The position numbers and the translations under genes are program-made. A DNA stretch of 49,935 nt. Origin: Planctomycetaceae bacterium. GTDB taxonomy: Bacteria > Planctomycetota > Planctomycetia > Pirellulales > Pirellulaceae. The notes below the pieces were generated by a model. It worked only from the letters and a program-made list of their open reading frames with translations, was not told the origin of the DNA and searched no databases. Numbering within the stretch: position 1 is the stretch's first letter; every line of letters starts with the position of its first letter. Shown piece after piece: positions 5,745-46,930 of this stretch. The DNA is taken from contig RECD01000166.1 in the NCBI GenBank assembly GCA_007694185.1, positions 1 to 49,935 on the forward strand, given 5' to 3'.

Positions 5745-6250
5745 CAACTTGCCCCATGCTTCGAAAAGTCGGATGGATCGCCGACCGAGCGACCCCTCGC
5801 AGGATAACAGATGCCGCTCACAGAAAAATCGACGAACGGGCCGCTTTTCACGCCCCCGATAAGGGCCGCAAAGCTTCTCCGCATACCCATATTGAACGCT
5901 GCCTCGCGATCGTTCGCCCCCCGCCAACCGGTCTCAGCCGCGAAGGGGCAGCCAAGCGGGTTTGGCGGGAGCTCAAGGTGAACTCAGTTCGCCTTGCGCG
6001 GAAACTCGCCGTTCCCGAAAGGTCGTCGAAAACGCGCGCTGCTCGGTCGGACGATCGGTTTTTTGGTAGAATGGGGCGTGATCGAGTTCCATCGAACTCC
6101 GCTCACCGTTCCCGAGCGTCGCTCTCCGGTTCGCTCCCCCACCTCCAGGTCCCGCCCGGTATGTTGTCGCATCTCAACCTCTCTAACCCCACGCGGCGGT
6201 CGGTCCGACAGATCGCCCCACAACCCGCTGCCGTCGTCGACTTCCGATTC
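5745..6250. other. Divergent intergenic region between the PEPCK-like gene and the DUF1549/DUF1553 gene
   Basis: About 500 bp between two divergent starts, so promoters for both should lie here. A T-rich patch with TAGAAT near 6058-6070 could be a -10 element for the rightward gene, but no convincing -35 partner is visible. An in-frame ATG at 6161 could extend the rightward gene by 30 codons. Nothing else stands out. Confidence 0.3.
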
Positions 6251-9200
6251 ATGCCCGCGGCGAGATTCGTGGTCGCCGCCCGGTTCGGAATCGTTGCCGT
6301 GACCGCGATCGGTTGCCTCTTGGGATCGCTACCGGCGGCGTCCGCTGCCGAGATCGATTTCAATCGTGACATCAAACCGCTGCTGTCGAATCAGTGTTTT
6401 TTCTGTCACGGACCCGACGAAGCCGAACGCCAAGGGGGCCTCGACGGCTTGCGGCTCGATACCCAAGAGGGGGCCCATGCCGACCAAGGTGGCCACGCGG
6501 CGATCGTGCCCGGCGACGCGGCGGCGAGCGAATTGATCCGGCGAATCACGTCGGATGACGACGGCGAAGTGATGCCGCCGCCAGGCACCGGCCGTCGGCT
6601 GACGCCTGCCGAGGTCGAACTGATGAGCCGCTGGATCGATGAGGGCGGCGACTACGCGACGCACTGGAGTTACGTGCCGCCGACCCGCCCCGATCCGCCA
6701 CCGGTCGCCCAAACCGATTGGCCACGCAACCCGATCGACCAGTTCATTTTGGCGAGGTTGGAATCCGAAGGCCTCCGCCCTCAACCGCCGGCCGATCCCC
6801 ACGCCTTGGTCCGCCGCCTGGCGCTCGACCTAACGGGACTGCCGCCGACCCCGGCCGAAACGCTCGATTTCGTGGCCGAGTACGAAGCCGATCCGTCCGT
6901 TTATGAAAAGTGGGTCGATCATTTCCTCAGCCGACCAGGCTACGGCGAACATTGGGCACGACTCTGGCTCGATCTGGCCCGCTACGCCGATTCGGCAGGC
7001 TACGCCGACGACCCGGCCCGCACGATCTGGCTTTATCGCGACTACGTGATCGATTCGATCCAACGGAACAAGCCGTTCGATCAATTCACGATCGAACAAA
7101 TCGCCGGCGACCTGTTGCCCGACCCGACCGATGAACAACGGATCGCGACCGCCTTTCACCGCAACACGCTGACGAACAACGAAGGCGGCACGGACGACGA
7201 AGAGTTCCGCAACGCGGCGATCGTCGATCGCGTCAACACGACGCTCGCCGTCTGGATGGGGACGACGATAGCCTGCGCCCAGTGCCATTCGCACAAGTAC
7301 GACCCGATCACCCATGAAGAATACTTCCGCGTCTTCGCGATCCTGAACAACACCGAAGACGCCGACCGCCGCGACGAGGCGCCGCTCCATTCGGTCTACA
7401 CCGACGATCAACGCCAAACCCGCGACGCCCTGACCGCCGAATTGGCTGCCTTGCGAGATACCCTGACCACCCCCACCCCCGAACTGCTCGCCGCACGGGA
7501 CGCGTGGGCCGCCGACTTCCCGCTCGATCTGGCCTGGCGATTCCCGGCGTCGCTCGAGGTCGTTTCCGAAGCCGCCAGCAAGGTGACGATCACGACCGAA
7601 GACGACGCCATCCCGGTCGTTTCGGTCGCCGGCGGCCCCGCCAAGGACACGTACAACGTCTCTTGGACGGCCGGAACTGCGAACGAACCGCTCCGAGCCA
7701 TCCGCTTGGAAACGCTCGCCGACCCGTCGCTCCCTGGCGGCGGACCCGGGCATGCCGGAGGCAATTTCGTGATCAACCAGGTGCGGGCCAGTTGGTCGCC
7801 GCCTGCCGAATCGCCGGTCGTCGGCCGCTTCGTCCGGATCGAAATCCCCGGCAAACGAAAGATGCTGTCGCTGGCAGAAGTCGAAATCTTCTCGTCCGGC
7901 ACCAACAACATCGCCGGCCAAGGGGCGGCTTCACAAAGCTCGACCGGCTACAACGGACCACCCGAATTGGCGATCGACGGCTACACCGACGGCCGCTACG
8001 AAACCGCCCGCTCGACAACGCACACCGAAATCTCCGACGACCCGTGGTGGGAAGTCGATCTGAAGTCTGCCGAACCGATCGAGCGGCTCGTGATCTGGAA
8101 TCGCACCGACGAAGGGACCGTCGAACGGCTGAAGGATTTTCGCGTCGCGATTTTGGGTGAGGACCGCCAGACGCTGTGGGAACAAACGGTCGCCGAACCG
8201 CCCCGGCCGAGCGTCGAGCTGGTTCCCAGCGGCCCCCGTCCGCTCCGCATCGTCCGGGCATTCGCCGCTCACCACCAAAGCGGCTTCGAACCGGCCGGTC
8301 TGCTCGATCCCGCCCCCGCGACCGGCTGGGCCGTCGGCGGCGCAACGGGTCAATCTCACGCCCTCGTCTTGATGACCGACGGCCCGGTGGCGATCCCCGT
8401 CGGCAGCCGCATCAACCTGACGATCGACCAACAATCGCCGCACGCTTCCCACACCTTGGGCCGATTTCGGATCTCGACCAGCAGCGACCCGCGGACCGAA
8501 ACTTGGGCGATGACCCCGCCCGCCGTGATCGCCGCACTCGAAATCGCCGCGGACAACCGAGACGACGCCGCTCAAAAGACGGTCACCGATTTCTACCTCG
8601 GCATGGCGCCGGCGCTGCAACCCCAGCGGCAACGCGTGAAGGAATTGGACGACCAACTGGCGAAGCTCCAGCCGATCACGGTTCCGGTGATGCGTGAGTT
8701 GCCCACGGACAAACGTCGCCAAACCCACATCCAGCTCCGCGGCAACTTCATGGTCAAAGGCGACGAGGTCCAGCCGGGAACCCCTGCCGCCTTCCATCCT
8801 TTGCCAGCCGACGTCCCGGCCGACCGATTGGCGCTCGCCAATTGGCTCGTCGATCCCGCCAACCCGCTGACCGCCCGCGTGATCGCCAACCGCTATTGGG
8901 AAAAACTCCTCGGCACCGGCATCGTCGCGACCAGCGAAGAGTTCGGCTCGCAGGGCGAATTGCCTTCCCACCCCGAGCTGCTCGATTGGTTGGCGACCGA
9001 GTTGGTTCGGCGTGATTGGGACACGCAGGCTTTGATCAAGCTGATCGTGATGTCCGCCGCCTACCGCCAAGCGTCCCAGATCACGCCGGAGGTGCTGCAA
9101 GCCGACCCTGACAATCGGCTCGTCTCCCGCGGACCACGCTTTCGGCTGACCGCCGAGACGATCCGCGATCAAGCGCTCGCCGTCGCGGGGCTGCTGAGCG

Positions 9201-9763
9201 ACAAGCGGTTCGGGCCACCCGTCAACCCGCCGCAACCCTCGATCGGGCTTTCTGCCGCTTTCGGCAGCGGCATCGATTGGAAGACGAGCGAAGGGGAAGA
9301 TCGCTACCGCCGCGGGCTCTACACCACCTGGCGTCGCTCCAATCCCTACCCCTCGATGGCGACCTTCGACGCCCCCAACCGCGAGGTTTGCACGCTCCGC
9401 CGCGGCCGCAGCAACACGCCTCTGCAAGCGCTCGTGACGCTCAACGACCCGGTCTTCGTCGAAGCCGCCCAAGGATTGGCACGACGGATGGTCACCGAAG
9501 GGGGTGACGAACCGGCCGACCGGATCGCTCACGGCTTCCTGCTCTGCTTGTCACGAACGCCGCAACCGGCCGAAGCCGAGCGGCTGCTCGAATTGTGGGA
9601 AGCGACGCTCGAAGCCTTGGCGGGACGCGAAGCCGAAGCGATGCGGCTCGCCACCGAACCGCTCGGGCCCCTTCCCACCGGAGCCGATCCGATCGAGTTG
9701 GCCGCCTGGACGGCGCTCGCCAACGTGCTGCTGAACCTCGACGAAACCCTGATGCGACGCTAG
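6251..9763 (+). CDS. Secreted cytochrome-type DUF1549/DUF1553 protein with inserted discoidin-like domain
   Basis: A 1,170-residue exported protein of the planctomycete-specific PSCyt1-PSCyt2(DUF1549)-PSD1(DUF1553) class. The signal peptide runs to about ASA32. A heme motif CFFCH (49-53) starts the cytochrome-like domain, with VMPPPG following. DUF1549 begins at NPIDQFILARLESEG near 160 and includes a second CxxCH, CAQCH (342-346). Between about 500 and 640 lies a jelly-roll-like insert (GRFVRIEIPGKRKMLSLAEVEI, then DPWWEVDLKSAEPIERLVIW), which resembles an F5/8 type C carbohydrate-binding domain. DUF1553 begins near 865 (ANPLTARVIANRYWEKLLGTG) and ends with RGRSNTPLQALVTLNDPVFVEAA. I chose ATG 6251 because it gives a clean signal peptide; ATG 6161 is the alternative. 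The DUF1501 gene follows after 9 bp, the usual co-transcribed pair. The enzymatic role of these families is not established; a periplasmic role in complex carbohydrate breakdown is inference. Confidence 0.92.
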   Translation: MPAARFVVAARFGIVAVTAIGCLLGSLPAASAAEIDFNRDIKPLLSNQCFFCHGPDEAERQGGLDGLRLDTQEGAHADQGGHAAIVPGDAAASELIRRITSDDDGEVMPPPGTGRRLTPAEVELMSRWIDEGGDYATHWSYVPPTRPDPPPVAQTDWPRNPIDQFILARLESEGLRPQPPADPHALVRRLALDLTGLPPTPAETLDFVAEYEADPSVYEKWVDHFLSRPGYGEHWARLWLDLARYADSAGYADDPARTIWLYRDYVIDSIQRNKPFDQFTIEQIAGDLLPDPTDEQRIATAFHRNTLTNNEGGTDDEEFRNAAIVDRVNTTLAVWMGTTIACAQCHSHKYDPITHEEYFRVFAILNNTEDADRRDEAPLHSVYTDDQRQTRDALTAELAALRDTLTTPTPELLAARDAWAADFPLDLAWRFPASLEVVSEAASKVTITTEDDAIPVVSVAGGPAKDTYNVSWTAGTANEPLRAIRLETLADPSLPGGGPGHAGGNFVINQVRASWSPPAESPVVGRFVRIEIPGKRKMLSLAEVEIFSSGTNNIAGQGAASQSSTGYNGPPELAIDGYTDGRYETARSTTHTEISDDPWWEVDLKSAEPIERLVIWNRTDEGTVERLKDFRVAILGEDRQTLWEQTVAEPPRPSVELVPSGPRPLRIVRAFAAHHQSGFEPAGLLDPAPATGWAVGGATGQSHALVLMTDGPVAIPVGSRINLTIDQQSPHASHTLGRFRISTSSDPRTETWAMTPPAVIAALEIAADNRDDAAQKTVTDFYLGMAPALQPQRQRVKELDDQLAKLQPITVPVMRELPTDKRRQTHIQLRGNFMVKGDEVQPGTPAAFHPLPADVPADRLALANWLVDPANPLTARVIANRYWEKLLGTGIVATSEEFGSQGELPSHPELLDWLATELVRRDWDTQALIKLIVMSAAYRQASQITPEVLQADPDNRLVSRGPRFRLTAETIRDQALAVAGLLSDKRFGPPVNPPQPSIGLSAAFGSGIDWKTSEGEDRYRRGLYTTWRRSNPYPSMATFDAPNREVCTLRRGRSNTPLQALVTLNDPVFVEAAQGLARRMVTEGGDEPADRIAHGFLLCLSRTPQPAEAERLLELWEATLEALAGREAEAMRLATEPLGPLPTGADPIELAAWTALANVLLNLDETLMRR

Positions 9764-9772
9764 GCCACCGAT

Positions 9773-11233
9773 ATGAATCCTCTGATCGAACGAATGGAAT
9801 TGCAGACCCGTCGTCACTTCCTGAACCGCTCCGGAGTCGGGCTGGGAAGCATCGCGCTGGCGTCGCTGCTCAACCGTGACTCGTCGCCCGCCGCTGCGGC
9901 TGCCCCGACGGTCGAAAACCCGTTGGCCACCCGGCCGCCCCACTTCGCCGGCAAAGCCAAACGGGTGATCTACCTGCACCTAACCGGCTCACCGCCGCAC
10001 CTCGACCTGTACGACTACAAACCGGAACTCGTCCGCCTCGACGGCCAGGATTGCCCCGAATCGTTCCTCAAAGGGAAACGCTTCGCCTTCACCACCGGCA
10101 CGCCCAAGTTGCTCGGCACCCGGCGTGAATTCAAGCAATGCGGCGAAGGGGGCGTGTGGCTCTCCGACGCCATCCCCCACCTGCACGACGTCGCCGACGA
10201 AATGTGCGTCATCCGTTCGATGACGACCGACCAATTCAACCACGCCCCTGCGGAGTTGCTGTTGTTGACCGGGTCGCCCCAATCCGGTCGCCCCTCGATG
10301 GGGTCGTGGGTGACCTACGGGTTGGGCAGCGAAAACGACAATCTGCCAGGATTTGTGGTCCTGATCAGCAGCGGCGTGCAACCCAACGGCGGCAAGAACT
10401 CGTTCGGCAGCGGCTTCATGCCATCGGTCTACCAAGGGGTGCAGTGCCGTTCCCAAGGCGACCCCGTCCTGTTCGCCTCCGACCCGCCCGGCATGGATCG
10501 TGCGTTGCGTCGTCAAACGCTCGACGCGATCCGCGACCTGAACGCGATACAAGTCGAACAACTCGGTCACCCCGAAACGCTCACGCGGATCGCCCAGTAC
10601 GAACTCGCCTTCCGCATGCAGACCTCGGTCCCCGAAGTGATGGACATCACCCGCGAATCGGCCGACACGATCGATCGGTACGGGGCGAAACCGGGCCAAG
10701 CCTCCTTCGCCAACAACTGTCTGCTCGCCCGGCGGCTCGTCGAACAGGGCGTGCGATTCGTCCAACTCTTCGATTGGGGCTGGGATTTCCACGGCACCGG
10801 GCCCGGCGAAGACATCCGCGACGGGCTGACGAAGAAATGCGCCACGATGGACCGCCCGATCGCCGCCTTGATCCGAGACCTTAAAAACCGTGGGCTGCTC
10901 GATGAGACGCTGATCATCTGTGGCGGCGAATTCGGCCGGACCCCGTTCCGAGAAGGCCGCACCGCCAAAGGCGACATCCTGGGCCGCGATCACTACCCCG
11001 ATTGTTACTCGATGTGGATGGCCGGGGGCGGCATCAAAGGCGGGCACACCCACGGCGAATCGGACGAACTCGGTTTTTCGATCGCCCGCGACAAGGTCCA
11101 CATTCACGACCTGCAAGCCACCATCCTGCACACGCTAGGTCTCGACCACACCCGCTTGACCGTCCGTTTCCAAGGCCGGGATTACCGTCTAACCGACGTC
11201 CACGGCAACGTGGTGCGAGACCTACTCACCTGA
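9773..11233 (+). CDS. DUF1501 family exported protein
   Basis: A 486-residue protein of the DUF1501 family, which has an alkaline-phosphatase/sulfatase-like fold and is almost always encoded next to DUF1549/DUF1553 proteins in planctomycetes. The N-terminus carries a twin-arginine-type signal (TRRHFLNRSG, residues 12-21, then a hydrophobic stretch and Ala-rich cleavage region). Family landmarks are visible: HLTGSPPHLDLYDYKP, SMTTDQFNHAPAELLLLTGS, RRLVEQGVRFVQLFDWGWD, and FGRTPFREG followed by GRDHYPDCYSMWMAGGGIKGG. It starts 9 bp after the DUF1549/DUF1553 stop, so the two are surely co-transcribed. Function is unproven; exported sulfatase-like or scaffold roles in polysaccharide use are inference. 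Confidence 0.95.
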   Translation: MNPLIERMELQTRRHFLNRSGVGLGSIALASLLNRDSSPAAAAAPTVENPLATRPPHFAGKAKRVIYLHLTGSPPHLDLYDYKPELVRLDGQDCPESFLKGKRFAFTTGTPKLLGTRREFKQCGEGGVWLSDAIPHLHDVADEMCVIRSMTTDQFNHAPAELLLLTGSPQSGRPSMGSWVTYGLGSENDNLPGFVVLISSGVQPNGGKNSFGSGFMPSVYQGVQCRSQGDPVLFASDPPGMDRALRRQTLDAIRDLNAIQVEQLGHPETLTRIAQYELAFRMQTSVPEVMDITRESADTIDRYGAKPGQASFANNCLLARRLVEQGVRFVQLFDWGWDFHGTGPGEDIRDGLTKKCATMDRPIAALIRDLKNRGLLDETLIICGGEFGRTPFREGRTAKGDILGRDHYPDCYSMWMAGGGIKGGHTHGESDELGFSIARDKVHIHDLQATILHTLGLDHTRLTVRFQGRDYRLTDVHGNVVRDLLT

Positions 11234-11563: not shown

Positions 11564-12442
11564 CTACGGCGTTTTCGCGGCGGGTTGGGCGTATAGGACC
11601 TGCCGTTTGGGGCGGTCGATTCCGATCAGCCCGCCGGTGACTGGGTCGACGGCGATCCCTTGCCCGGTGAAGGGGGCGGGGACGGTGCCGAGGTGTTCCA
11701 GAATCGCGCCGTCACTTGGGACTCGCAGCCGATAGAGCTTGCGGTCGTCGTGACCGGTCGCCAGCAACTCGTCACCGAGAATGATGCCGCCCGAGAGGCT
11801 GAATCGACCCAGGTCCTTGAGCACCGCGGCGGGATAGTGCCAATGGGCGGTTTCGCGCCAATCTTCGTCAAAACGGACCAGCACCGTGCGGTGGTTGTCG
11901 TCGTCGTAGTGGGCGAAGTTGCACCACCAATCGCCATCGTGGATGAAGGCCCACGTCAGGCTGCCGTAAGGCGATTCGCCGAAATCGTGGAACGTCGTCA
12001 GCTCCATCGATTCCAGATCGAGCAGCTTGATTTCGCTCCGTTCGGGTTTCTGCGGGTAATTCGAATGGGCGCAGTAGAGTTTGCCGGCGTGGAACCAGCC
12101 GCTGTTGAGGTGCTTCGCCGCGCCGTGGCTGATCGCCAACCGCTCACCCGACTCGCGGTCGTAACGGGCGACGGTGGTGTTGTTGATCGCGTAGACATAC
12201 CGGTCGTCCGCCGCGGCCGCCTGGAACGCTTCGGCCGCTTCCAGAACTCCCGTCTGTACCCACGCGCGCATGTCGCCCTTCCCCTGGTCAACCACGACGC
12301 CCTGCGACCGGTCGCGGGACTTCGTGTTCGGTTCGTCGGCAGCGGATGTGCCGGGCAGCAGCGACAGTCCCAACAGAATGCCCAGCGACGTGGAAAAACG
12401 AGTTCCCGGCCAACGGGTTTGGCATGTGAAGGCGAGACTCAT
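11564..12442 (-). CDS. Secreted beta-propeller-like protein of unknown function
   Basis: A 292-residue exported protein: signal peptide with hydrophobic core SLGILLGLSLLPGTSA near residues 18-34, then repeated short beta-strand motifs typical of propellers (YVYAINNTTVARYDRESGER, KLYCAHSNYPQ, RSEIKLLDLESMEL, DGDWWCNFAHYDDDNHRTVLV). I do not recognise a catalytic motif; related planctomycete proteins are sometimes labelled cycloisomerase or endonuclease, without support visible here. Its start overlaps the stop of the preceding PQQ-propeller gene by 4 bp (ATGA), so translation is probably coupled and the two proteins likely work together in the periplasm. Confidence 0.85.
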   Translation of the reverse strand: MSLAFTCQTRWPGTRFSTSLGILLGLSLLPGTSAADEPNTKSRDRSQGVVVDQGKGDMRAWVQTGVLEAAEAFQAAAADDRYVYAINNTTVARYDRESGERLAISHGAAKHLNSGWFHAGKLYCAHSNYPQKPERSEIKLLDLESMELTTFHDFGESPYGSLTWAFIHDGDWWCNFAHYDDDNHRTVLVRFDEDWRETAHWHYPAAVLKDLGRFSLSGGIILGDELLATGHDDRKLYRLRVPSDGAILEHLGTVPAPFTGQGIAVDPVTGGLIGIDRPKRQVLYAQPAAKTP

Positions 12443-13803
12443 TTACTCCCCCCGTTCGGCTCTTCGATCCGGTAGAGCGCCTTGTCGGTACGCAGGAACA
12501 GGGCGTTCCCGGCGACGGCGGGCGAGGCGAGCATGGCTTCTTCCAAGTCATTTGCCGCCAATTTTTCGAACTTCCGGCCGGTCCGCAGCACCGTCGTGAT
12601 CCCCTCTTCACTGGGGAAGTAGATCCGATCGCCCGCCAGGATCGGCGAAGCAGAGAAATTGCCACCCAGCCGGTTTCGCCAGATGACTTCGCCTGATTCG
12701 CCGTCGATGCCCAGCGCGATCCCGTCATCACTGACGAGGTAGACGAGCCCCTCGTGGGCGATCAGCGACGGCGTTTTGGGGATTCCGCGATCGATTTCCC
12801 AATCGACGTGCGACTCGGTCACCTCGCCGCTGCCGTCGGTCCGGATCGCCAACAGTTTGGTCGGGCCGAAGCCGGTCGCGATCAGCACCCGCGAATGGCT
12901 GATCACCGGCTTGGGGACGACCGAATAGCCGTCGAAGCGAACCCACCAGCGGATCGCGCCGGTTTGCGGCTCGAGCGCCAAGACGCAATCGCTGCCGGGC
13001 GCGATCACCAGCGGGCCGTCGGCCGAATCGATCACGGTCGGCGTCGCGAAAGAAAACTTTTTGGTAGCCTCGACCGGTCGCGGCGTCCGCCACTTTTCTT
13101 CCCCGGTCGCGGCATCGAGCGCCACCACGTAGGGATCGCTGGCGCCGTCGCAGGTGAAGATCAACGCGTCGCCGACGAGCACCGGTGAACCGCCGTTGCC
13201 ATGGACCGGCGGGTAGGTGTGTTCGCGATTGACCCAGATGAGCTCGCCGCGACGATCGACACAGGCGGTCCCCTGGTGGCCGAAATGGACGTACAGTCGG
13301 TCGCCGACCAGCAGCGGCGTGGGGCTGGCGTGGCTGTTCTTCTTGTGGATCTTGGGAGCCTCCTCGCCGTCTTGGCGGATCAGCTCGGTGACCCGCAGCG
13401 TTTCGCCTGATTCGGCATCGATCAGGATCAGCGACAAGTCGTAATCGCCGTCGGGATCGTCATCGCGGGGAATGGCGGCTGACAGATAGATCACGCCGTC
13501 GCCGATCACGGGGGACGACCAGCCCTGGCCCGGCAATTCGGTCCGCCAGCGGACGTTGGTTTTTTGGTCCCACTGAAGCGGCAGGCGGGCGTCACCGGCG
13601 ATCCCGTCCTGCGTCGGTCCGCGAAAGGCCGGCCAGGGATCGGCGGCACACGTGAGAGCCGCGGCGGTCAAACACAACGCGAAGCCGAGACATCCGAGCG
13701 CGGTTAGTCGCCCAAGATGCCGTGCGGCGGGTCTGGGGCGAGTTCGCGTCGCGGAGGAAACGGACGCTCGAGACGAAGCGGTGGGTCGGGTCATGAAGGA
13801 CAT
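12439..13803 (-). CDS. Secreted PQQ-binding-like beta-propeller (BamB-like) repeat protein
   Basis: A 454-residue exported propeller protein. An Arg/Ala-rich N-terminal stretch precedes the hydrophobic segment LTALGCLGFALCLTAAALTCA, then WPAFRGPTQDGI, the standard opening of planctomycete PQQ-propeller proteins. Repeats have the usual form of a binding strand followed by a DAxxGE-W turn: LIDAESGETLRV, ALDAATGEEKWRT, ALEPQTGAIRWWV, GIDGESGEVIWRN. Start at 13803 or at the Met three codons later; neither has a clear ribosome site. It overlaps the downstream propeller gene by 4 bp. The fold is commonly used as a scaffold or quinoprotein dehydrogenase; no calcium/PQQ active-site residues could be assigned, so a structural role is the safer reading. 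Confidence 0.93.
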   Translation of the reverse strand: MSFMTRPTASSRASVSSATRTRPRPAARHLGRLTALGCLGFALCLTAAALTCAADPWPAFRGPTQDGIAGDARLPLQWDQKTNVRWRTELPGQGWSSPVIGDGVIYLSAAIPRDDDPDGDYDLSLILIDAESGETLRVTELIRQDGEEAPKIHKKNSHASPTPLLVGDRLYVHFGHQGTACVDRRGELIWVNREHTYPPVHGNGGSPVLVGDALIFTCDGASDPYVVALDAATGEEKWRTPRPVEATKKFSFATPTVIDSADGPLVIAPGSDCVLALEPQTGAIRWWVRFDGYSVVPKPVISHSRVLIATGFGPTKLLAIRTDGSGEVTESHVDWEIDRGIPKTPSLIAHEGLVYLVSDDGIALGIDGESGEVIWRNRLGGNFSASPILAGDRIYFPSEEGITTVLRTGRKFEKLAANDLEEAMLASPAVAGNALFLRTDKALYRIEEPNGGSK

Positions 13804-15325: not shown

Positions 15326-15692
15326 GATGTTGACCGTGAGGACGAGAAACCGAGGGGACGCGAAGCATCCGGCGGCGTGGCGAAACGACTGCCGACGAGC
15401 CATGCGGCGGATCATGCAGTTTACACCCGACGCATGGCGATTGCCGAATCCTGATCCGACCATGACAGCGTTCGGCAGCGTTGTTCAGCCGCCGCCTTGC
15501 CGCCGTGGGAGTTACGGTTGGCAGAGAGATGCACAGGAAGAATGTGTGTACCGAGTGAAAAGGTGATCACTTACCCGTCATTCATCAAAAGTTCATCGGT
15601 CGATCGGGGTAAACTGAATCGGGATGCGTTACGCTATGTAAAGTCGAGCGATACCTCCCATCCCGCCCCGTTCCGCCCACCCCAAGTTGACG
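15326..15692. other. Divergent intergenic region upstream of ppk2 and the propeller-methyltransferase gene
   Basis: A 367-bp stretch between divergent starts. It must hold both promoters, but I see no consensus -35/-10 pair, operator palindrome or RNA structure that I can defend. Local AT content rises around 15570-15650. Confidence 0.3.
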
Positions 15693-18600
15693 ATGAAAGC
15701 TCACCCCGCTGGCCGACGGATCGCGGCCTGGACGCTGCTATCCCTGTTGGCCGTTGCCGCCCTGCCGGCGCTTAGCACCTTGCCGGCTCATGCGGCCGAT
15801 TGGCCATCATTCCGCAACGGCCCGGCACGGCACGGTTCGACATCGGCGACGGTCGATGGGGAATTGCATCGGTCTTGGACTTATCGGGCACCTGCCGCGC
15901 CGCGTCAGGCGTGGTCGAGTGCCGAGGGGCGGGTGATCGAAACGAAGCTGATTCGCAACCGCGCCAAGTACGACGACGCGATCCATCCGGTCGTCGTCGG
16001 CGATCGGGTGTACGTCGGTTCGTCGGTCGATCACCACCTGCATTGCCACGACCTAGAAAGTGGCCGCAAGCTTTGGAGTTTCGCGTCAGGCGGGCCGATC
16101 CGGTTGGCGCCGGCGGTCGATTCGGGACGGGTCTACTTCGGCAGCGACGACGGCTACGCCTACTGCGTCGAGGCGGCTGACGGGAAGCTGGTTTGGAAGT
16201 TTCGTGCCGGTCCGGCGGACGAGTGGTTGTTGGCCCGAGGCGAAATGATTTCACGCTGGCCGATCCGAACCGGTGTGCTGGTCGATGACGGCGTCGCCTT
16301 CTTCGGCGGCGGCATCTTCCCACACGAAGACGTCTTTCTGCATGCGGTCAACGCCACGGACGGGACGAAGATTTGGAGCCAGGACAACATCAGCGTTCAG
16401 GACGCCGGCCGCAACGACTTGTCGCCGCAAGGCTACCTGTTGGCGGACGACAAGCACTTGTATGTCCCGTCTGGCCGTTCGTTGCCGGCGGCGTTCGATC
16501 GCCACACGGGCGAATTCATTTACAAGCGGACCTTCCCTTGGCGGACGACGGCCGGCGGCGTGATCGGTGGCATCCAAGCTCTGTTGGCCGACGATCAACT
16601 CTATGCCAGCGGTCCGCATCACTGGTTGGCACTCGACCACCAGCAGGGCGATGTCGGGTTCGGTTGGTTCGAAGGCCGGCAACTGATCGTCCAGGACGAC
16701 GCCGCCTTTGCCGCCACGGGTGCGCAGCTGGCGCGATATGATCGCCTCGACTACGCGGTCAACAGCCGCCAACGTCATAAGTTGGAACTGGAAATCAGCG
16801 ACCTCGGTCGTCAGCGTCCCGCCAAGCCGGCGGACAAGGCGAAAGTCGAAGCGCGGTTGGAAGCGGCCAAGCAGGAACTCGAATCGATCAGGTTGGTGGG
16901 TGTCCGGTGGCATCAGCCGACCGAGGACGATGCGGCGGTTTTGGCGACCGGCAATTTGGTTTTCCTCGGCGGCGAAAACCGCGTGACCGCATACGACATC
17001 GCAGACGGACGCCAGGTTTGGCAAGCCGAAGTCGATGGTCAGGCTCGCGGGTTGGTCTTTGCAGGCGGCAAGCTGTTGGTCAGCACCACGAGCGGGACGA
17101 TCGAGTGCTTCACGACCGGCAAGGCTCCCGCCGAAACGGCTCCGGAAGCCGATGTGGCTGCCAACGCGTCACCGTTCCCCGAAGACGAATGGACGCCGAT
17201 CTATGCCGCGGCTGCCGAACAGATCTTGGCAGAATCGGGCGTTCGTCAAGGATTTTGCTTGGTCGTCGGTAGCGAACGAGGGCGATTGGCTTGGGAATTG
17301 GCCCGCCGCAGCGACTTGCAAGTCTACGGGATCGAATCGGACCCGGCGAAGGTCGCCGAAGCCCGCGAGGCGTTGTCTTGGGCAGGCTGGTATGGCCACC
17401 GGGTGGCGATCCACCAAGCCGAACCGAGCGAGTCTTTCTATTCGAACTACTTCGCCAACCTGATCGTCTCGGACACGTTGATGCTGACGGGCGAATTGCC
17501 GTCCGGCAGCGAAGCGGTCGCGCGGCATTTGAAACCGCTCGGCGGCGTGATGATGTTCGGTGCCCCCGCCAACGCGCCGTCCGAGGTGTTGGAATCGGTC
17601 GCTCGGCCTGACGGTACCGACCAGCTCGTCGCGGCCGCCGAATTGGGCGAACAGGTGACCAAAACGGCTACTCCGACATGGACGTCACTTGCCCGCGGGC
17701 CGTTGCCCGGTGCCGGCGATTGGACTCACCAATACGGCAACGCGGCGAACACGGCGGTCAGCACCGACACCCGCATCAAAGGTGGCCTCGGGGTGCTGTG
17801 GTACGGCGACCCGGGACCGGACCAAATGGTCAATCGACATGACGGCGCCGTCGGACCGCTGGCCGTGCAAGGCAAGCTGATCGTGCAAGGCGAATGGTCG
17901 ATTTTGGCCTATGACGCCTACAACGGGTTGTTCCTGTGGAAACACGAAAACCCCGAAGCGATCCGAACGGGGGTTTTTCAAAACCAAAACCCCGCCAATA
18001 TCGCCGCTTCGGAAACGGGCATCTTCCACTTCCTCGGCGACCAATGCATCCAGCTCGATCTGGAAACCGGCGAAACGGTTCGCACCCATCGATTGCCCAA
18101 GAGCTTGGATGACGGCAAGTACCAATGGGGTTACTTGGCGATCCAAGACGGCATCCTGTTCGGCGCTGCGACCGTCCGCACGGAACTCGACGCCCGCCAA
18201 CGGCGCCGCGGCAAGCAGACCGAGGACGCGACCGATCACCTGTTCGCCATCGACATCGCGACGGGAGAACACCTTTGGCAATACGAAGGCCGGAACATCT
18301 CGCACCACACGATCGCGATCGGACCGAGCGAACTGTTTTTCATCGACAGCTCGATCTCGAGCGAAAAGCGTGACGAGATCCTGCGTCAGGACAAGACGGC
18401 GCTGGCCAATTTGACCGGCGCGGAACGCGAATTGGCCGAAGACCGGCTGAAGAAGGCCGACTTGCGACAAGCGATCGCCTTGAATTCGCGGACCGGGGAA
18501 CGGTTGTGGGCCGAAGCGGTCGACGTGACCGATTGCAGCGACATCGGCATCGGCGGCGGGCGGCTGACCCTGATCTATCAGGACGGCGTGCTGTTGCTCG

Positions 18601-19697
18601 GCGGTGCGAACGCCAACGGACACTATTGGAAGCAATTCATCGACGGCGAATTCAGTCGTCGGCGATTGGTCGCGCTTCAAGCCAACGACGGCTACAAATT
18701 GTGGGCTCGCGACGCGAACTACAAAATCCGCCCGATCATCTTGGGCAACAAGGTCTTAGCCGAACCGTGGATCTATGACCTGCACACCGGAACGCAGTTG
18801 ACTCAGTCGCACCCGGTCACCGGCCAAGAGGTTCCTTGGAGCCTGATGCGGACCGGACACCACTGCGGCATGTTCACCGGTTGTGACTCGGGCATGCTGC
18901 TGTTCCGCTCAGGCGACACCGCCTTCTATGACCTGGAATCGGAAAGCGGCACACGGCACTTCGCCGGCCACCGACTCGGTTGTTGGATCAACGCGATCCC
19001 CGCTGGCGGGTTGGTAATGATCCCCGAAGCGAGCGCCGGATGTGTCTGCCTCTACTCGATCGCTTCGACGATCGTGATGGAACCGCGAGAACCTCGTCGA
19101 GAATGGTCGATCCACAGCGCCACCGGCTCGGTCTTGCCCGTCAAGGAATTGCTCGTCAACCTCGGTGCTCCCGGCGACCGACGCGATGCCGAAGGCGACT
19201 TGTGGTTCGCCTTCCCGCGTCCCAAGCCGTACAAGGAAACTTCGATCGAAATCGATCTGAAGGTCACGCCGAACTTCGTCAGCGAAGCTCGATATTGGAA
19301 CCTGCGTGACACCGTGTCGCTGGGCGAAACGGACACGCCCTGGCTGCTGACCTCCGGCGCCGGCCCGATGAATCGGCTGATCGTCCCCTTGCGAGGGACT
19401 GACGATGGGCCTGCGAACTACGAGGTGAAACTCCATTTCCGCTACGAAGCCGGCGCGACGCTGGCCACGCAGGTTGACGAACTGCTGAAGTTCGGCGGGG
19501 AGGTTGCGAGCCAGGAGTTGACGGTCGTCGAACCGGATGCGGCAGCGGTGGCGACCGAAGGGGGAGCCGCCAGTGGATCGCCGCGGCAAGTGATCGTCAC
19601 GGCACGGGTCAACGTGCCGGGTGATCTCGACATCGAGCTGGTCGTCGGCGAGCAAACGCCAAGGCTGTGTGCCTTCGCCATTCGCCAAGTCGAATGA
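15693..19697 (+). CDS. Secreted PQQ-propeller protein with embedded methyltransferase-like domain
   Basis: A 1,334-residue exported protein. After a signal peptide (hydrophobic core WTLLSLLAVAALPAL, cleavage near AHA) comes WPSFRNGPARHG and a first PQQ-type propeller (about 30-470; LESGRKLWSF, AADGKLVWKF, IADGRQVWQA). A coiled-coil-like insert (KLELEISDLGRQRPAKPADK) interrupts it. Residues about 490-640 form a Rossmann-like domain with a SAM-methyltransferase motif I (FCLVVGSERGRLAWELARR) and acidic loop (LQVYGIESDPAKVAEAREAL). A second propeller follows (about 655-1110; NGLFLWKHENPEA, IATGEHLWQYEG, SRTGERLWAEA), then a beta-rich C-terminus. Start ATG 15693 is preferred to the TTG two codons earlier. 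It is a single-gene unit ending in a hairpin at 19737. A methyltransferase fold outside the cytoplasm would lack an obvious SAM supply, so the domain may be a non-catalytic relic; that is inference. Confidence 0.9.
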   Translation: MKAHPAGRRIAAWTLLSLLAVAALPALSTLPAHAADWPSFRNGPARHGSTSATVDGELHRSWTYRAPAAPRQAWSSAEGRVIETKLIRNRAKYDDAIHPVVVGDRVYVGSSVDHHLHCHDLESGRKLWSFASGGPIRLAPAVDSGRVYFGSDDGYAYCVEAADGKLVWKFRAGPADEWLLARGEMISRWPIRTGVLVDDGVAFFGGGIFPHEDVFLHAVNATDGTKIWSQDNISVQDAGRNDLSPQGYLLADDKHLYVPSGRSLPAAFDRHTGEFIYKRTFPWRTTAGGVIGGIQALLADDQLYASGPHHWLALDHQQGDVGFGWFEGRQLIVQDDAAFAATGAQLARYDRLDYAVNSRQRHKLELEISDLGRQRPAKPADKAKVEARLEAAKQELESIRLVGVRWHQPTEDDAAVLATGNLVFLGGENRVTAYDIADGRQVWQAEVDGQARGLVFAGGKLLVSTTSGTIECFTTGKAPAETAPEADVAANASPFPEDEWTPIYAAAAEQILAESGVRQGFCLVVGSERGRLAWELARRSDLQVYGIESDPAKVAEAREALSWAGWYGHRVAIHQAEPSESFYSNYFANLIVSDTLMLTGELPSGSEAVARHLKPLGGVMMFGAPANAPSEVLESVARPDGTDQLVAAAELGEQVTKTATPTWTSLARGPLPGAGDWTHQYGNAANTAVSTDTRIKGGLGVLWYGDPGPDQMVNRHDGAVGPLAVQGKLIVQGEWSILAYDAYNGLFLWKHENPEAIRTGVFQNQNPANIAASETGIFHFLGDQCIQLDLETGETVRTHRLPKSLDDGKYQWGYLAIQDGILFGAATVRTELDARQRRRGKQTEDATDHLFAIDIATGEHLWQYEGRNISHHTIAIGPSELFFIDSSISSEKRDEILRQDKTALANLTGAERELAEDRLKKADLRQAIALNSRTGERLWAEAVDVTDCSDIGIGGGRLTLIYQDGVLLLGGANANGHYWKQFIDGEFSRRRLVALQANDGYKLWARDANYKIRPIILGNKVLAEPWIYDLHTGTQLTQSHPVTGQEVPWSLMRTGHHCGMFTGCDSGMLLFRSGDTAFYDLESESGTRHFAGHRLGCWINAIPAGGLVMIPEASAGCVCLYSIASTIVMEPREPRREWSIHSATGSVLPVKELLVNLGAPGDRRDAEGDLWFAFPRPKPYKETSIEIDLKVTPNFVSEARYWNLRDTVSLGETDTPWLLTSGAGPMNRLIVPLRGTDDGPANYEVKLHFRYEAGATLATQVDELLKFGGEVASQELTVVEPDAAAVATEGGAASGSPRQVIVTARVNVPGDLDIELVVGEQTPRLCAFAIRQVE

Positions 19698-19842: not shown

Positions 19843-20595
19843 TCAGGCCGCGGGCGTGGCGGACCGTCGGCGACGCCGCCACATGACGGCGCTGGTCAGC
19901 GTCGCACCGAGCCACAAGACCGAAGCGGTCGCCGGTTCGGGGATCACGGTCGAACCACTCGTCAACTGCACGTCATCGAGCAGCAGCGCGGAGGGACTGA
20001 CGACGCCATCGACATCGATCACGCCGAAACCGAGCCGATAGGTCCCGGTCGCCTGGATGGTGTACTCGTAGTATTGGTAACCGGTTTCCTGAGCGTACGG
20101 GCTGAGCGATGAGGCCAGGTTCGGGTCGAGGACGCTCGAAATCAGCACCGGTCCCGACTCGCTGACCAAACTGAAGAAGGCGAAGTCGACGTCAGGAGGC
20201 GGCGTGGGCCCGAAGTCTTCGTTGGTCAAAAAGTTCCAGCGGAAACTCAAGACGTCGCCGGCGGTGGCGGAAATGTTTTGTGCGATCGCCGAACCGGACG
20301 ACAGGGGGGAGAATCCGAGTCCCGACAGCGGAGTCAACTGGAGTTGCAGGAAATTCTCCAGGTCCGGCACGGAATAGGCGACGTTGTCGTGCGATTGGAG
20401 CAGCGCGTGACGGATCCCCTCGGGAGGCACGCCGAAATCCTGGCCGACGGGTAGGATTTGGACGCTACCGAAAAAATCCCATCCGATCGGGCTGTCCGAT
20501 TCGAAACCGCCGTTCACGATCGCCGCGCTGGCGGGTGAAATACTCGCTACGGCCAAGCTGGCGATTCCGATCCATCTTACGATCGATTTCATCAT
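19843..20595 (-). CDS. PEP-CTERM anchored exported protein
   Basis: A 250-residue exported protein. The N-terminus is a signal peptide (IVRWIGIASLAVASISPASA), followed at once by IVNGGFESDSPIGWDFFG, the opening of a carbohydrate-binding-like beta-sandwich common in these proteins. The C-terminus is a textbook PEP-CTERM sorting signal: VIPEPATASVLWLGA, a hydrophobic helix and a cluster RRRRR, expected to be processed by an exosortase. No exosortase gene is in this window. The body has no catalytic motif. Start MMKS at 20595; the second Met at 20592 is equally possible, and a GGAAGAGA-like purine stretch lies about 20 bases upstream. Likely a matrix or surface protein. Confidence 0.92.
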   Translation of the reverse strand: MMKSIVRWIGIASLAVASISPASAAIVNGGFESDSPIGWDFFGSVQILPVGQDFGVPPEGIRHALLQSHDNVAYSVPDLENFLQLQLTPLSGLGFSPLSSGSAIAQNISATAGDVLSFRWNFLTNEDFGPTPPPDVDFAFFSLVSESGPVLISSVLDPNLASSLSPYAQETGYQYYEYTIQATGTYRLGFGVIDVDGVVSPSALLLDDVQLTSGSTVIPEPATASVLWLGATLTSAVMWRRRRRSATPAA

Positions 20596-42925: not shown

Positions 42926-45900
42926 ATGACCAAGAAATCTCGTTGTCGCAGGGCCCGAACCGCTCTGCTCGCCCTGTTGACCGCACACTTTGGTGCCACC
43001 GCGCCGTCGTCCCGGCCGAGTTTTTTCACCGATCATGCCGGGGTGGTGCGAGCCCAGGAATACACGACACCGGCGAGCGGGTTGCAGTTGTCGGCGCCGA
43101 ACCAGTTCCAGAACGGGCGGCCGGCGACGGACAATTTCGTGCCGAACGGCAACCCGGCCGGCGGTTTTGGCGTCGCCCACGCGACCGAAGAGATGCCGGT
43201 CCTGAACACGATCCAGATGCCTGCGGCGTTTGTTGCTAAGGTCAGCACCGCGTTGGAATTGCGTTATCGCGATAACTCCGATGTGCAGGTTTCGCCCGAC
43301 GCCCGCGGCGGCCGCTTGGTGATCCTCGCCCCGCCTTCGCTGCAACGGCAGCTCCAGGGCGAAGCGATGAAGATTTACGTCGCGGAAAGCCAGCCCGGTG
43401 CGAGCCAAACCGGTGTTCCCGAAGCGCTCGCTTCGGTCGTCCCCGACGCGATGACGGCCGGCGTGCGGACCGCGGGCGGCCAGATGCAGATGCGTTTGAG
43501 CTCGATCGATTGGCGGCAATTCGAGGATTCGCTCCAACGGGTCGTCGGCAAGCGGATCCCGGTCACGACCAGTCAGAACGGTCAGAAGGCGATTTTCCGG
43601 TTGGCGGGTGCGCCGCTGGACGGGACCACGGTCGAAGTCGATCGTCGCGAGAACGTCGTGACCGTCGTCGCCCCGGAACCGGCGATGCCGGGTTGGCAAA
43701 AGATGATCCGGTCACTCGATAGCGCGGCGACCAAGCCGGGTGAAGTGATCGAGATGGTGCGGGTCGAGAACGCGAAACCGGCTCCGATCCAACGCGCCTT
43801 GAGGCTGATCGATAACTTGCCGAAAGACGCCGAAGCGACTGTCACTGCGGTCGGTGGTGGCGGCGGTGGCGAACAGCTCCGGACGGCGATGTTGCAGCCA
43901 CCTCCCGCCGGGGCGCCGCAGCAGCCGCCCGCCTTCCAATTGCCGGATGGCGAGCCGGGTGCCGCCGCGGGCGAAACCGCCGGGATCATCGGCGACACGC
44001 AAATCCAGTTCGTCCCGGAGCTCGGGATCATCATCGTCCGCGGGGCCAAGCGGGACGCCCAACGGGTGCTCGACGTGATCCGCCAGATCGAAGAACAGAG
44101 CGCGGTGACGCAGCCCGAGGTCGAGATCTATCAGCTCAAGCACCTCAACGACTCCGCCGCGGCGGAACTGTTGACTCAGGTTTATGAGGAAGTGCTCGCG
44201 GCCCGCCAAGGCGAAGTCAACATCAAGCCGCTCGACCATCCCAACGCGCTGCTGCTGGTCGGCCGCCGGGAATCGGTCGCCAACGCGCTGGCGTTGATCG
44301 AGAAGCTCGACAAGCCGCTCGATTCGTCCAGCCGCCTGCGGGTCTTCCGGTTGAACCACGCCAGCGCGACCGACGCGGAAGAGACCGTGCGGAGCTTCTT
44401 CACCGACCGCCCCGGCGCCGGTGAAGACGTTCGTCCCGGCTTGGGGGTTCGCGTGCGGATCGTCGCCGATTACCGCACCAACTCGTTGGTCATCGGCGCC
44501 TCGCCGCGTGACTTGGCCGAAGTGGCGATCTTGATCCGCGACCTCGACGTGGAAAGCGTCCCGGCGCAGAACGAGATCAAGGTCTTCTCACTGCGCAACT
44601 CGCTGGCCGCCGACTTGGCCCCGGTGATCCAAAACGCGATCAACGGGGACGGGGAAGGGGGCGAGAACGCCAACGCCACCCGTCCTTCGACGTCGCTGTC
44701 GATCCTGTCGGTCGATTCCCAAGCCGGCACGATGCTCAGTTCCGGCGTCTTGTCGGGATTGGTCGTCACCGCCGACGCCAACGCCAACGCGATCATCGTC
44801 CGGGGGCCGTCCAGCAGCATGTCGTTGATCGGGGAACTGATCCGCCAGCTCGATCAAGTTCCCGGCGTCGAGACGGTGGTGAAGGTCTTCACGATCGAGA
44901 ACGGCGACGCGGTGCGATTGAACACCGCCTTGCAAGAATTGTTCTCGCAAGCCGCACAAGGCGGCGGGGGCCAAGGGGTCGGTCAGCTTTCGCCGGCGAC
45001 CGCGTCCAGCAGCTCGCTGGTCAACCTGCGGTTCACGACCGACCAACGGACCAACAGCATCATCGCGACCGGATCGGCCAGCGACCTGGAGGTCGTCGAA
45101 AGCATCCTGTTGCGGCTCGACACGAAGGGATTTGCGGAACGGGTCACCGAAGTGATCTGGTTGCGGCATCAATCGGCGCCGGAAATCGCCGCGGCGATCA
45201 CCCAGTACGTCCAAACCCGGGTCCAGACGGCCAACCAGATCCAGCAGTTCCAAACGGGCCTCGGGCCGTACGATTTGCCCGACCGCGATTTGGTCGTGGT
45301 CGCGGAAGAGGTCAGCAACAGCTTGTTGCTTAGCGTCTCGCCGCGGCTCTACCCCGATGTTCGGCAATTGATCGAAAGCCTCGACCGCCGCCCGCCGATG
45401 GTACTGATCAAGGTCGTGCTGGCCGAAGTCTCCCTCGGTGACACTTTTGAACTCGGTGGAGAACTCGGTCTGCAGGACAGCCTGCTGTTTGATCGCAGCG
45501 TGGCCAACATAGGCGCTGAAGGGGCGAATCTTTCCCCTTTGTCAAACCCTTCGAACAGCGGTTTCAACTTCAATAACGCCGGCACACCCAACAATGCGGC
45601 GATCAATCCCGGCGCGGTCGGTTCGCGAGCCCTCAGCACGTTCGGGTTGGGAACGGCGAGCTCCGCGGCCGGCTATGGCGGCTTCGTACTGAGCGCCGCG
45701 AGCGACTCGTTCAGCCTGTTGCTGCGGGCGTTGCAAGATGCCAACCGGGCGCAGATCCTCAGCCGCCCGCAGATCATGACGGTCGACAACAAGGCCGGCT
45801 TCGTGCAGGTCGGCCAATCGGTGGCACGGGTCAGCGGTTTGCAACAGGGCGGCGTCAACTTCGCTCCGGTCTTGGAAGTCGGCGACATCGACATCGGCTT

Positions 45901-46930
45901 GATCCTCGAAGTCCTGCCGCGGGTCGGTGCCGATGGGCTGATCTCGATGCAGATCCGGGCCGAGCGGTCGTCGATCGACGACGTCACGACCGGGACGCCG
46001 ATCGGGACCGATCAAAACGGGAACGCGATCGTGATCCCCAACATCAATCGGACGACGGCCGAATCGACAATCATTGCCTACAGTGGTCAGACGGTCGTTT
46101 TCGGCGGGCTGATCCAGAAGGAACGTTTCGTGCAGAGCCGCCGCGTCCCGTACCTGTCGCAGATCCCGCTGGTCGGGATGTTCTTCCGGTACGACCGCGA
46201 GACCGAGGAACGCCGCGAATTGTTGGTGGTGATGACCCCGATGTTGGTCAACGGCGACGAGGACTTGGAATACGTCAAGCAGACCGAATCGGCGCGGATG
46301 AGCTACTGCTTGGCTGACGTCGTCGAGATGCATGGCGACGTGGGGCTGAGCGGCGGCTACGGTTTGTGGGGCCCGGCGATGGGACCGACGATCTATCCCG
46401 ACGTACACCCGACCGTCGACCAGTTCCCCAAAGCCCAACCGTTCCCGGCCGAAGGCCAGTACCCGGTCAACGGCCGCGGCGAAAGGATCCTCAGCGAACG
46501 GGTGCTCGGTGAAACGCCGCTGCAAGCTCCGGGGGTAGTATCCGAAGGCGTGCCGCTACAGGGCTACCCGCAAGGCGGCGTTTACCCGCAGCAGCAAGGT
46601 TACCCGCAGGGTGGTGGCTTCCCGCCGGCGACCGCGCCCTACCCGCAGGCGCCCTACGGTTCGCCTCAGGGTGCGCCCCAAATGGTGCCCCAAACGATTC
46701 CCCGCGGCGTGCCGCAAACCGAACCGAACGGGGGCGTGCCGAACGGGGGCGCGCCGAACCAGAACGGCGGGGATCCGCAAAGCCGCGGTCCGGTGCCTGG
46801 GAACGCTCCGAGAACGGGCATGATGCCGACGCTGCAACCGCCGCAGGTTGGTCAGCAAAATGGGTTTGATCCGACCATTCGGCCCGCCGACTTCCAGTTC
46901 ATCGACAGTGACAAGCCGTCCCAGTACTGA
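42926..46930 (+). CDS. Very long secretin (type II/III secretion or pilus outer-membrane channel)
   Basis: A 1,334-residue outer-membrane secretin, roughly twice the length of GspD. After an export signal (TALLALLTAHFGATA) and a linker comes a chain of N-type ring domains: repeated beta-alpha units such as IYQLKHLNDSAAAELLTQVY, RVFRLNHASATDAEETVRSFF, IKVFSLRNSLAADLAPVIQ, VKVFTIENGDAVRLNTALQELF and EVIWLRHQSAPEIAAAI, spaced about 110 residues. The secretin domain proper spans about 830-1105: PPMVLIKVVLAEVSLGDTFELG, RAQILSRPQIMTVDNKAGFVQVG, SGQTVVFGGLIQKE, VPYLSQIPLVGMFF. A Pro/Gln/Gly tail with PQGG/YPQ repeats covers about 1190-1320. No ATPase, pseudopilin or assembly platform gene is adjacent; a lipoprotein gene follows at 46972 and could be its pilotin or partner. 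Confidence 0.95.
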   Translation: MTKKSRCRRARTALLALLTAHFGATAPSSRPSFFTDHAGVVRAQEYTTPASGLQLSAPNQFQNGRPATDNFVPNGNPAGGFGVAHATEEMPVLNTIQMPAAFVAKVSTALELRYRDNSDVQVSPDARGGRLVILAPPSLQRQLQGEAMKIYVAESQPGASQTGVPEALASVVPDAMTAGVRTAGGQMQMRLSSIDWRQFEDSLQRVVGKRIPVTTSQNGQKAIFRLAGAPLDGTTVEVDRRENVVTVVAPEPAMPGWQKMIRSLDSAATKPGEVIEMVRVENAKPAPIQRALRLIDNLPKDAEATVTAVGGGGGGEQLRTAMLQPPPAGAPQQPPAFQLPDGEPGAAAGETAGIIGDTQIQFVPELGIIIVRGAKRDAQRVLDVIRQIEEQSAVTQPEVEIYQLKHLNDSAAAELLTQVYEEVLAARQGEVNIKPLDHPNALLLVGRRESVANALALIEKLDKPLDSSSRLRVFRLNHASATDAEETVRSFFTDRPGAGEDVRPGLGVRVRIVADYRTNSLVIGASPRDLAEVAILIRDLDVESVPAQNEIKVFSLRNSLAADLAPVIQNAINGDGEGGENANATRPSTSLSILSVDSQAGTMLSSGVLSGLVVTADANANAIIVRGPSSSMSLIGELIRQLDQVPGVETVVKVFTIENGDAVRLNTALQELFSQAAQGGGGQGVGQLSPATASSSSLVNLRFTTDQRTNSIIATGSASDLEVVESILLRLDTKGFAERVTEVIWLRHQSAPEIAAAITQYVQTRVQTANQIQQFQTGLGPYDLPDRDLVVVAEEVSNSLLLSVSPRLYPDVRQLIESLDRRPPMVLIKVVLAEVSLGDTFELGGELGLQDSLLFDRSVANIGAEGANLSPLSNPSNSGFNFNNAGTPNNAAINPGAVGSRALSTFGLGTASSAAGYGGFVLSAASDSFSLLLRALQDANRAQILSRPQIMTVDNKAGFVQVGQSVARVSGLQQGGVNFAPVLEVGDIDIGLILEVLPRVGADGLISMQIRAERSSIDDVTTGTPIGTDQNGNAIVIPNINRTTAESTIIAYSGQTVVFGGLIQKERFVQSRRVPYLSQIPLVGMFFRYDRETEERRELLVVMTPMLVNGDEDLEYVKQTESARMSYCLADVVEMHGDVGLSGGYGLWGPAMGPTIYPDVHPTVDQFPKAQPFPAEGQYPVNGRGERILSERVLGETPLQAPGVVSEGVPLQGYPQGGVYPQQQGYPQGGGFPPATAPYPQAPYGSPQGAPQMVPQTIPRGVPQTEPNGGVPNGGAPNQNGGDPQSRGPVPGNAPRTGMMPTLQPPQVGQQNGFDPTIRPADFQFIDSDKPSQY

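Follow-up and report, generated by a model that had tools for sequence, protein, structure and literature searches.

A predicted exported protein family of Planctomycetota and Verrucomicrobiota with an altered methyltransferase-fold domain between two propellers

The gene at 15693-19697 in a 49,935-nucleotide stretch of Planctomycetaceae DNA (contig RECD01000166.1, assembly GCA_007694185.1; the whole stretch is called the window below) encodes a protein with two propellers of the PQQ (pyrroloquinoline quinone) type, P1 and P2, a domain of class I methyltransferase fold (MT) between them, and a predicted signal peptide in front. We propose, with a probability of about 0.6, that MT descends from a class I methyltransferase but has lost the ability to methylate, and that it may now serve as a fixed module, either structural or ligand-binding. 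Because the altered donor site for S-adenosylmethionine (SAM) recurs with the same architecture in many relatives, the domain has probably been kept for some other purpose.

Fold of the middle domain

An earlier note on this DNA had described a Rossmann block with SAM motif I and an acidic loop. Its motif VVGSERGRLAWELA (residues 524-537) and loop YGIESDP (545-551) indeed fall at motif I and at the beta2 acid of class I enzymes in the alignment to 3dlc, so that the fold and the positions stand; motif I itself is not intact but has the degenerate form V-x-G-x-E-x-G. Whole-protein comparison with Pfam gave only Methyltransf_12 in this region, below the cut-off (E 0.014). The domain when cut out matches Methyltransf_25 (E 1.8e-5, 25.8 bits against a cut-off of 27), as do 34 of 39 family members at E <= 0.01, and a 39-row profile of the MT family finds 3dlc with E 1.6e-11. 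The AlphaFold2 model of MT, made from 62 aligned sequences, has a predicted local distance difference test score (pLDDT) of 89.4; its best Foldseek match is again 3dlc (E 4.5e-9), to which VIA aligns it with Z 16.0 and 2.6 A over 160 residues. With a Rossmannoid fold and a detectable sequence relation, the middle domain is, as modeled, of the METHYLTRANSFERASE fold, class I methyltransferase type, by homology. A chance motif match was rejected on the profile, the predicted fold and the structure comparison, and the methyltransferase fold presumed in the earlier note is there in the predicted structure.

Motif I and the beta2 acid

At motif I the window protein has V-V-G-S-E-R-G where the canonical form is D/E-x-G-x-G-x-G. 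The acid is replaced by V524 and the middle glycine by E528, with the first and third glycines (G526 and G530) retained. By its motif I the domain does not qualify as a functional SAM methyltransferase; at the tip of beta2 it keeps the ribose-binding acid as E548.

The same positions were counted in an alignment of 157 different MT domains, a non-random sample drawn from 80 fetched loci and from loci hand-picked from match lists, and including L143 and L144, neither of which is a propeller protein. The 80 loci are the best of 165 relatives found by two short peptides, FANLIVSD and [GD][VQ][TRN][RQ]GFCLV; conservation at these peptides is partly circular because the loci were selected by them. 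Neither peptide covers E528 or E548. The motif I acid, two residues before the first glycine, is present in 9 of 157 domains. The first glycine is found in 140 (D in 14 others) and the third in 133, and the middle position is occupied by Glu, as in the window, in 82 domains and by Gly in 39. Position 548 is E or D in 140 domains, and D550 is likewise kept in 140. Near-invariant positions are G520 and P615 (156 each), R558 (149) and R570 (143), and with mostly-gap columns excluded the least variable ones are G520, P615, G617, R558, G565, G568, G526, L532, R570 and D550. Ordinary methyltransferases, 30 of which were taken as controls from a PF13649 search of nine genomes including the window's own, show the motif I acid in 28 cases by a loose regular expression and the strict form D/E-x-G-x-G-x-[GAS] in 22. 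The scarcity of the acid in the family compared with the controls, together with the frequent Glu in place of the middle glycine, suggests that methylation has been lost.

Several points weigh against this. The controls are top-ranked PF13649 matches, which biases them toward intact motifs, and they were scored by regular expression and not within the family alignment. Loss of the SAM site is not uniform in the family, because GxGxG and the beta2 acid are kept together in 31 of 157 domains, six of which (one being L143) also have the motif I acid and thus the complete set of acid, three glycines and beta2 acid. In addition, according to the available part of PMC1282579, none of the loop glycines is found in every true methyltransferase, and nicotianamine synthases use SAM without a motif I acid. 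Five propeller members, L022 from the window's own genome, L046, L047, L177 and L152, combine an intact DxGCGDG with the beta2 acid, and all five pass a crude signal-peptide test, with a signal-like stretch ahead of P1. Along with two stand-alone intact-motif methyltransferases with signal-like N-termini (L143 and L191), they are what favors an active SAM-dependent methyltransferase outside the cytoplasm, to which SAM would come by export or lysis. We consider such activity improbable: the window's clade is without the motif I acid and the middle glycine, extracytoplasmic SAM has no source on record, and MT is shorter past the GG turn in L022, L046, L047 and L048.

A candidate explanation for the altered loop comes from enzymes of the same fold. 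The GxGxG loop is in contact with the carboxypropyl portion of SAM, and the ribose hydroxyls are held by the acid of motif II; in spermidine synthase Asp101 in the middle of the glycine loop leaves the SAM carboxyl no room (PMC1282579, available part); the beta2 acid is described as a ribose-binding hallmark of Rossmann cofactor enzymes in the part of PMC4777477 available to us. By analogy, we infer that E528 fills the SAM pocket of MT: it would occupy the space of the carboxypropyl end and so exclude SAM, much as Asp101 excludes the SAM carboxyl. MT would then be a fixed module beside P2, while the propellers would present substrate- or partner-binding faces in the envelope. It might be purely structural, keeping the two propeller faces in register, or its E548 site, which is kept, might bind a ligand that carries a ribose or diol but not the carboxyl end of SAM. 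Other methyltransferase-like proteins that lost SAM-binding residues have adopted other roles, as the same source (PMC1282579) relates in its available part.

It is also possible, though we rate it as rather unlikely, that MT is a ligand-binding sensor in the envelope, in which an adenosine-type or ribose compound lacking the carboxypropyl tail (candidates include decarboxylated SAM, methylthioadenosine, plain adenosine and nucleotide sugars) shifts the relation of the propellers. Such a role would agree with the retention of the beta2 acid while the methionine end is altered, with the conservation of the charged residues R558, R570 and D550, and with spermidine synthase, where the acid in the glycine loop selects decarboxylated SAM (PMC1282579, in the part available); the conservation could also be structural.

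Signal peptide and location

The predicted signal peptide ends in PAHA, directly ahead of ADWPSF, and the mature N-terminus DWP is kept across relatives. An alternative TTG start lies at 15687, two codons 5' of the ATG. No start 3' of the signal peptide is acceptable because it would cut into the conserved mature N-terminus, and the possibility of a cytoplasmic start without the signal peptide, left open earlier, was checked and no start compatible with that N-terminus was found. At the matching place a signal peptide was recognized in 58 of 62 rows (the window protein and 61 full-length relatives) by a crude, home-made check of hydrophobicity and cleavage; of the four rows that failed, one lacks sequence at this place. 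A wrong start codon was rejected on the same count. A similarly crude, home-made export test was passed by 134 of the 157 MT-domain members and by 1 of the 30 controls; 11 of the 23 failing members are open reading frames (ORFs) that start no more than 15 bases from the locus edge, and the test misses control L191, which appears exported by eye. By these crude tests a Sec signal peptide is conserved across the family, and the window protein is probably extracytoplasmic.

Signal-like N-termini also occur in proteins without propellers. L191, a plus-strand ORF around 1501-1788, has the canonical motif I DLGCGNG and an N-terminus resembling a signal peptide. L143 (genome G305), a minus-strand ORF of 257 amino acids, is a stand-alone methyltransferase (Methyltransf_11, E 8e-18) with an intact DLGAGKG and a signal-peptide-like N-terminus. 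Exported predicted methyltransferases occur in other bacteria too (COG4798).

Given the methyltransferase fold and the export signal, the paradox of a SAM-type domain outside the cytoplasm holds. The earlier note had offered three ways out: a non-catalytic domain, a different ligand, or retention in an intracellular compartment of planctomycetes. The motif counts favor the first two. A compartment private to planctomycetes was rejected, since 12 of the best 80 relatives belong to Verrucomicrobiota. Since the intracellular membranes of planctomycetes are infoldings of the cytoplasmic membrane, a protein exported by Sec would be outside the cytoplasm regardless. Heavy invagination of planctomycete membranes is described in the available part of PMC8567305.

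Domain layout

The order in the window protein is signal peptide, P1, MT, P2 and a C-terminal region (Table 1). The AlphaFold2 model of residues 35-1140, from the 62 aligned sequences, has pLDDT 83.4 and a predicted template modeling score of 0.82. PQQ_2 matches the whole protein in six stretches (E 2.3e-32). P1 aligns with tetrathionate hydrolase 7cqy_A over 331 residues (VIA Z 35.3, model residues 1-443) and with the BamB chains listed at Z about 29 to 32. As P1 aligns with whole propellers, it is complete before MT begins, and an insertion of MT into a propeller blade was rejected. The domain had been described as nested between two PQQ propellers; it does lie between two propellers, but in series after a finished P1 rather than nested. 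The fold of P2 is taken from Pfam and the model strands, since the listed VIA rows cover well only model residues 19-442. By the alignment, from which its limits are taken, P2 starts a few residues before the end of MT. In the model both propellers carry a hairpin of helices, at 317-365 in P1 and 856-886 in P2 (mature numbering). P2 is the best conserved part of the protein in comparison with four relatives, and the C-terminal region is the least conserved in comparison with the three relatives that cover it.

Table 1. Features of the gene and its product; positions are those of the window.
Feature	Residues	Positions	Strand	Basis
Whole gene	1334 amino acids	15693-19697	+	ATG start 15693; stop ends 19697
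Predicted signal peptide	1-34	15693..15794	+	sequence; crude signal-peptide test
P1, first PQQ/BamB-type propeller	35-480	15795..17132	+	Pfam PQQ_2 E 3.9e-25; VIA
Helical hairpin in P1	about 351-399	16743..16889	+	model helices 317-339, 345-365 (mature numbering)
MT, class I methyltransferase-fold domain	494-668	17172..17696	+	profile, Pfam, AlphaFold2, Foldseek, VIA
Degenerate motif I GFCLVVGSERGRLA	520-533	17250..17291	+	3dlc alignment; counts in 157 domains
Beta2 acid loop YGIESD		17325..17342	+	E548 at ribose-binding position; D550 conserved in family
P2, second PQQ-type propeller	664-1140	17682..19112	+	PQQ_2 E 6.9e-11; model strands
P2 Cys in GHHCG	C1058	18864..18866	+	1.00 of 88 aligned P2 tails
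P2 Cys in RLGCWIN	C1097	18981..18983	+	0.99 of 88 tails
CxC in AGCVC	C1117 and C1119	19041..19049	+	0.97 and 0.86 of 88 tails; model pLDDT < 50
C-terminal region	1141-1334	19113..19694	+	without Pfam match at E <= 0.05

Selection on the MT domain

The MT domain is under purifying selection. The ratio of nonsynonymous to synonymous substitution rates (dN/dS) against three close relatives is about 0.22, 0.31 and 0.15 (0.23/1.08, 0.30/0.96 and 0.31/2.06); dS was not computable for a fourth. In the same three pairs identity is 61-67% in MT, 71-74% in P1 and 83-84% in P2. The lower identity of MT than of P2 and the many variants of motif I are what one would expect of a functionless evolutionary relic tolerated as a linker, but we regard a relic as very unlikely: dN/dS is far under 1, G520, P615 and R558 are near-invariant, and the great majority of members keep P2 after MT in the domain order.

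Distribution and domain orders

The best 80 of the 165 relatives come from Planctomycetota (64), Verrucomicrobiota (12), Uhriibacteriota (1) and Armatimonadota (1), with two lacking a phylum label. A survey of the architecture across the phylum, suggested in the earlier note, has been begun: in the window's phylum the 39-row profile has matches at E <= 1e-8 in at least 47 of the 244 genomes covered, a lower bound as up to 15 candidates were scored per genome. The family thus recurs and extends beyond Planctomycetota, and an oddity private to the window's genome was rejected. Among 60 near genomes, the window's own included, 23 match the window's MT domain at E <= 1e-3. The window's genome has six family members at E <= 1e-8, and seven genomes reached via the fetched loci have 1 to 19 matches each. 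Three genomes examined for copy number yielded 17, 19 and at least 55 matches, the last being G028, where 55 of 127 candidates were scored. A tblastn search with the MT domain gave no match in the plasmid collection.

Architectures of the 157 members were counted with P1 and P2 profiles made from the 62-row alignment. The order P1-MT-P2 is found in 131. Nine have P2 after MT and no P1 match on either side, and nine more (L146-L150, L164, L178-L180) have the order MT-P2-P1, for example L149 with MT at 23-164, P2 at 152-594 and P1 at 626-776; as read from these profile matches, MT-P2-P1 corresponds to the order of the window protein, circularly permuted at the level of whole domains. P2 therefore follows MT in 149 of 157 members, across three domain orders. 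P1 precedes MT with no P2 in the same frame in four (L132, where P2 is in another frame; L140, which stops at the contig end; L120; and L166); for L120 no P2 match was found in the locus, though it continues for 5.5 kb. Neither propeller was detected in L141, L033 (a short ORF), L143 and L144.

In a tree of 98 rows, 16 of them sampled from the 80 loci, the nine rows of HxGCGDG type, in which H replaces the motif I acid, group in one clade (Shimodaira-Hasegawa-like approximate likelihood ratio test, SH-aLRT, 99), which includes seven of the nine permuted members. L141 and L142, both broken by masked stretches, sit in this H-type clade as well. A second clade (SH-aLRT 93) unites the rows that have the motif I acid, eight of nine in all; the ninth, L143, stands apart on a long branch. 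The tree has many weak forks and, being rooted at the midpoint, which is arbitrary, and including the motif columns, does not decide which motif is ancestral.

Cysteines of the second propeller and the PQQ and BamB names

The four cysteines of P2 listed in Table 1 are highly conserved, and disulfides or a metal site are possible. The seven H-type tails all lack a cysteine in the C1119 column but have one close by. A more far-reaching scheme would have the members with DxGCGDG use SAM in the envelope, while in all others, among them the window protein, the site would have shifted to a related cofactor that lacks the carboxyl of SAM, beside the conserved four-cysteine propeller face, amounting to extracytoplasmic nucleoside-cofactor chemistry in Planctomycetota and Verrucomicrobiota; we think it very improbable.

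Models of PQQ-dependent dehydrogenases are missed by a wide gap (TIGR03075, 48.7 of 480.05 bits; TIGR03074, 29.7 of 832.65 bits), as is the BamB equivalog model TIGR03300 (65.7 of 285.2 bits). Because these NCBIfam models match only below their cut-offs, the name of BamB or of a PQQ enzyme would mislead for the window protein. PQQ dependence is further doubtful because pqqC was found in none of 20 genomes, the window's own included. Of 199 genomes from the phylum, 5 responded to the search, all below cut-off, and of 14 control genomes none did. For pqqE there was no match in the window's genome, and three relatives matched below cut-off. Judged from these searches, use of PQQ by the window protein is unlikely, although PQQ might be taken up from outside.

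Gene neighborhood

Among the neighbors in the 80 loci, the commonest is an exported protein that no Pfam model matches (17 loci); next come ABC (ATP-binding cassette) permease-like (11) and ABC ATPase-like proteins (10) and sulfatases (8), the last three names being read from the sequence by eye. The exported neighbor, for example at L123:567-1860 on the minus strand, is mostly divergent and has ACSVPVFRYALEQW after its signal peptide; in several loci it is followed by the ABC permease-like and ATPase-like genes. One representative of each common neighbor was searched against the window, and none matched at E <= 1e-3.

Elsewhere in the window, the minus strand at 11564-13803 carries genes for a 454-residue PQQ_2 propeller protein and a 292-residue exported protein without Pfam match, which overlap by four bases and are probably one operon. 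The plus strand at 5756-11233 encodes, in this order, a PSCyt1/PSCyt2/PSD1 protein that also carries an F5/8 type C domain and a DUF1501 protein, a pair that is usual in planctomycetes. A small exported protein at 19843-20595 (minus strand) has, by eye, a PEP-CTERM-like tail, VIPEPATASVLWLGATLTSAVMWRRRR. At 42926-46930 (plus strand) a secretin is encoded in which Secretin_N matches six stretches and whose tail is rich in Pro, Gln and Gly.

Comparison with known systems

The proteins described here form a large, repeatedly duplicated envelope family in which the fold of a cofactor enzyme appears to persist beyond the cytoplasm although half of the binding site has been rebuilt. The family permits a test of whether a methyltransferase-like fold has been recruited as a structural or sensing part, and if SAM is bound by its intact-motif members, it could no longer be taken for granted that SAM chemistry is restricted to the cytoplasm; the intact-motif L022 in the window's own genome makes the question directly testable. 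A degenerate methyltransferase as a partner module is of an already known kind. The extracytoplasmic setting, the combination of a Glu in the glycine loop with a retained ribose acid, the high copy numbers and the permuted domain order were not met among the titles listed in literature searches, with most subscription journals outside those searches.

P1 shares its fold with BamB, other PQQ_2 propellers and tetrathionate hydrolase; compared with BamB, the window protein is far larger and has two propellers and MT in one chain. Tuwongella immobilis has 28 BamB-annotated paralogues with masses from 43 to 193 kDa, and for five a single cell fraction is reported as their place of detection (PMC8567305); the comparison with them is at the level of the BamB annotation. 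Class I SAM methyltransferases (Methyltransf_25/11/12; 3dlc, MMP1179) have the same Rossmannoid order of strands and helices, the KPxGG turn and the beta2 acid; in contrast to them, MT of the window is predicted to be exported, has the motif I acid and middle glycine replaced, and is fused to two propellers. Spermidine synthase is alike in the acid amid the glycine loop of motif I, as given in the available part of PMC1282579, and the comparison concerns that loop. The non-catalytic Rossmannoids treated in that part, mtTFB, Gcd10p, Kar4p and the inactive domain of RsmC, likewise have a methyltransferase fold with SAM-binding residues lost, mtTFB also having a bulky residue in the glycine loop (PMC1282579); they are intracellular RNA or transcription proteins, whereas the window protein is probably extracytoplasmic and retains the ribose-binding acid.

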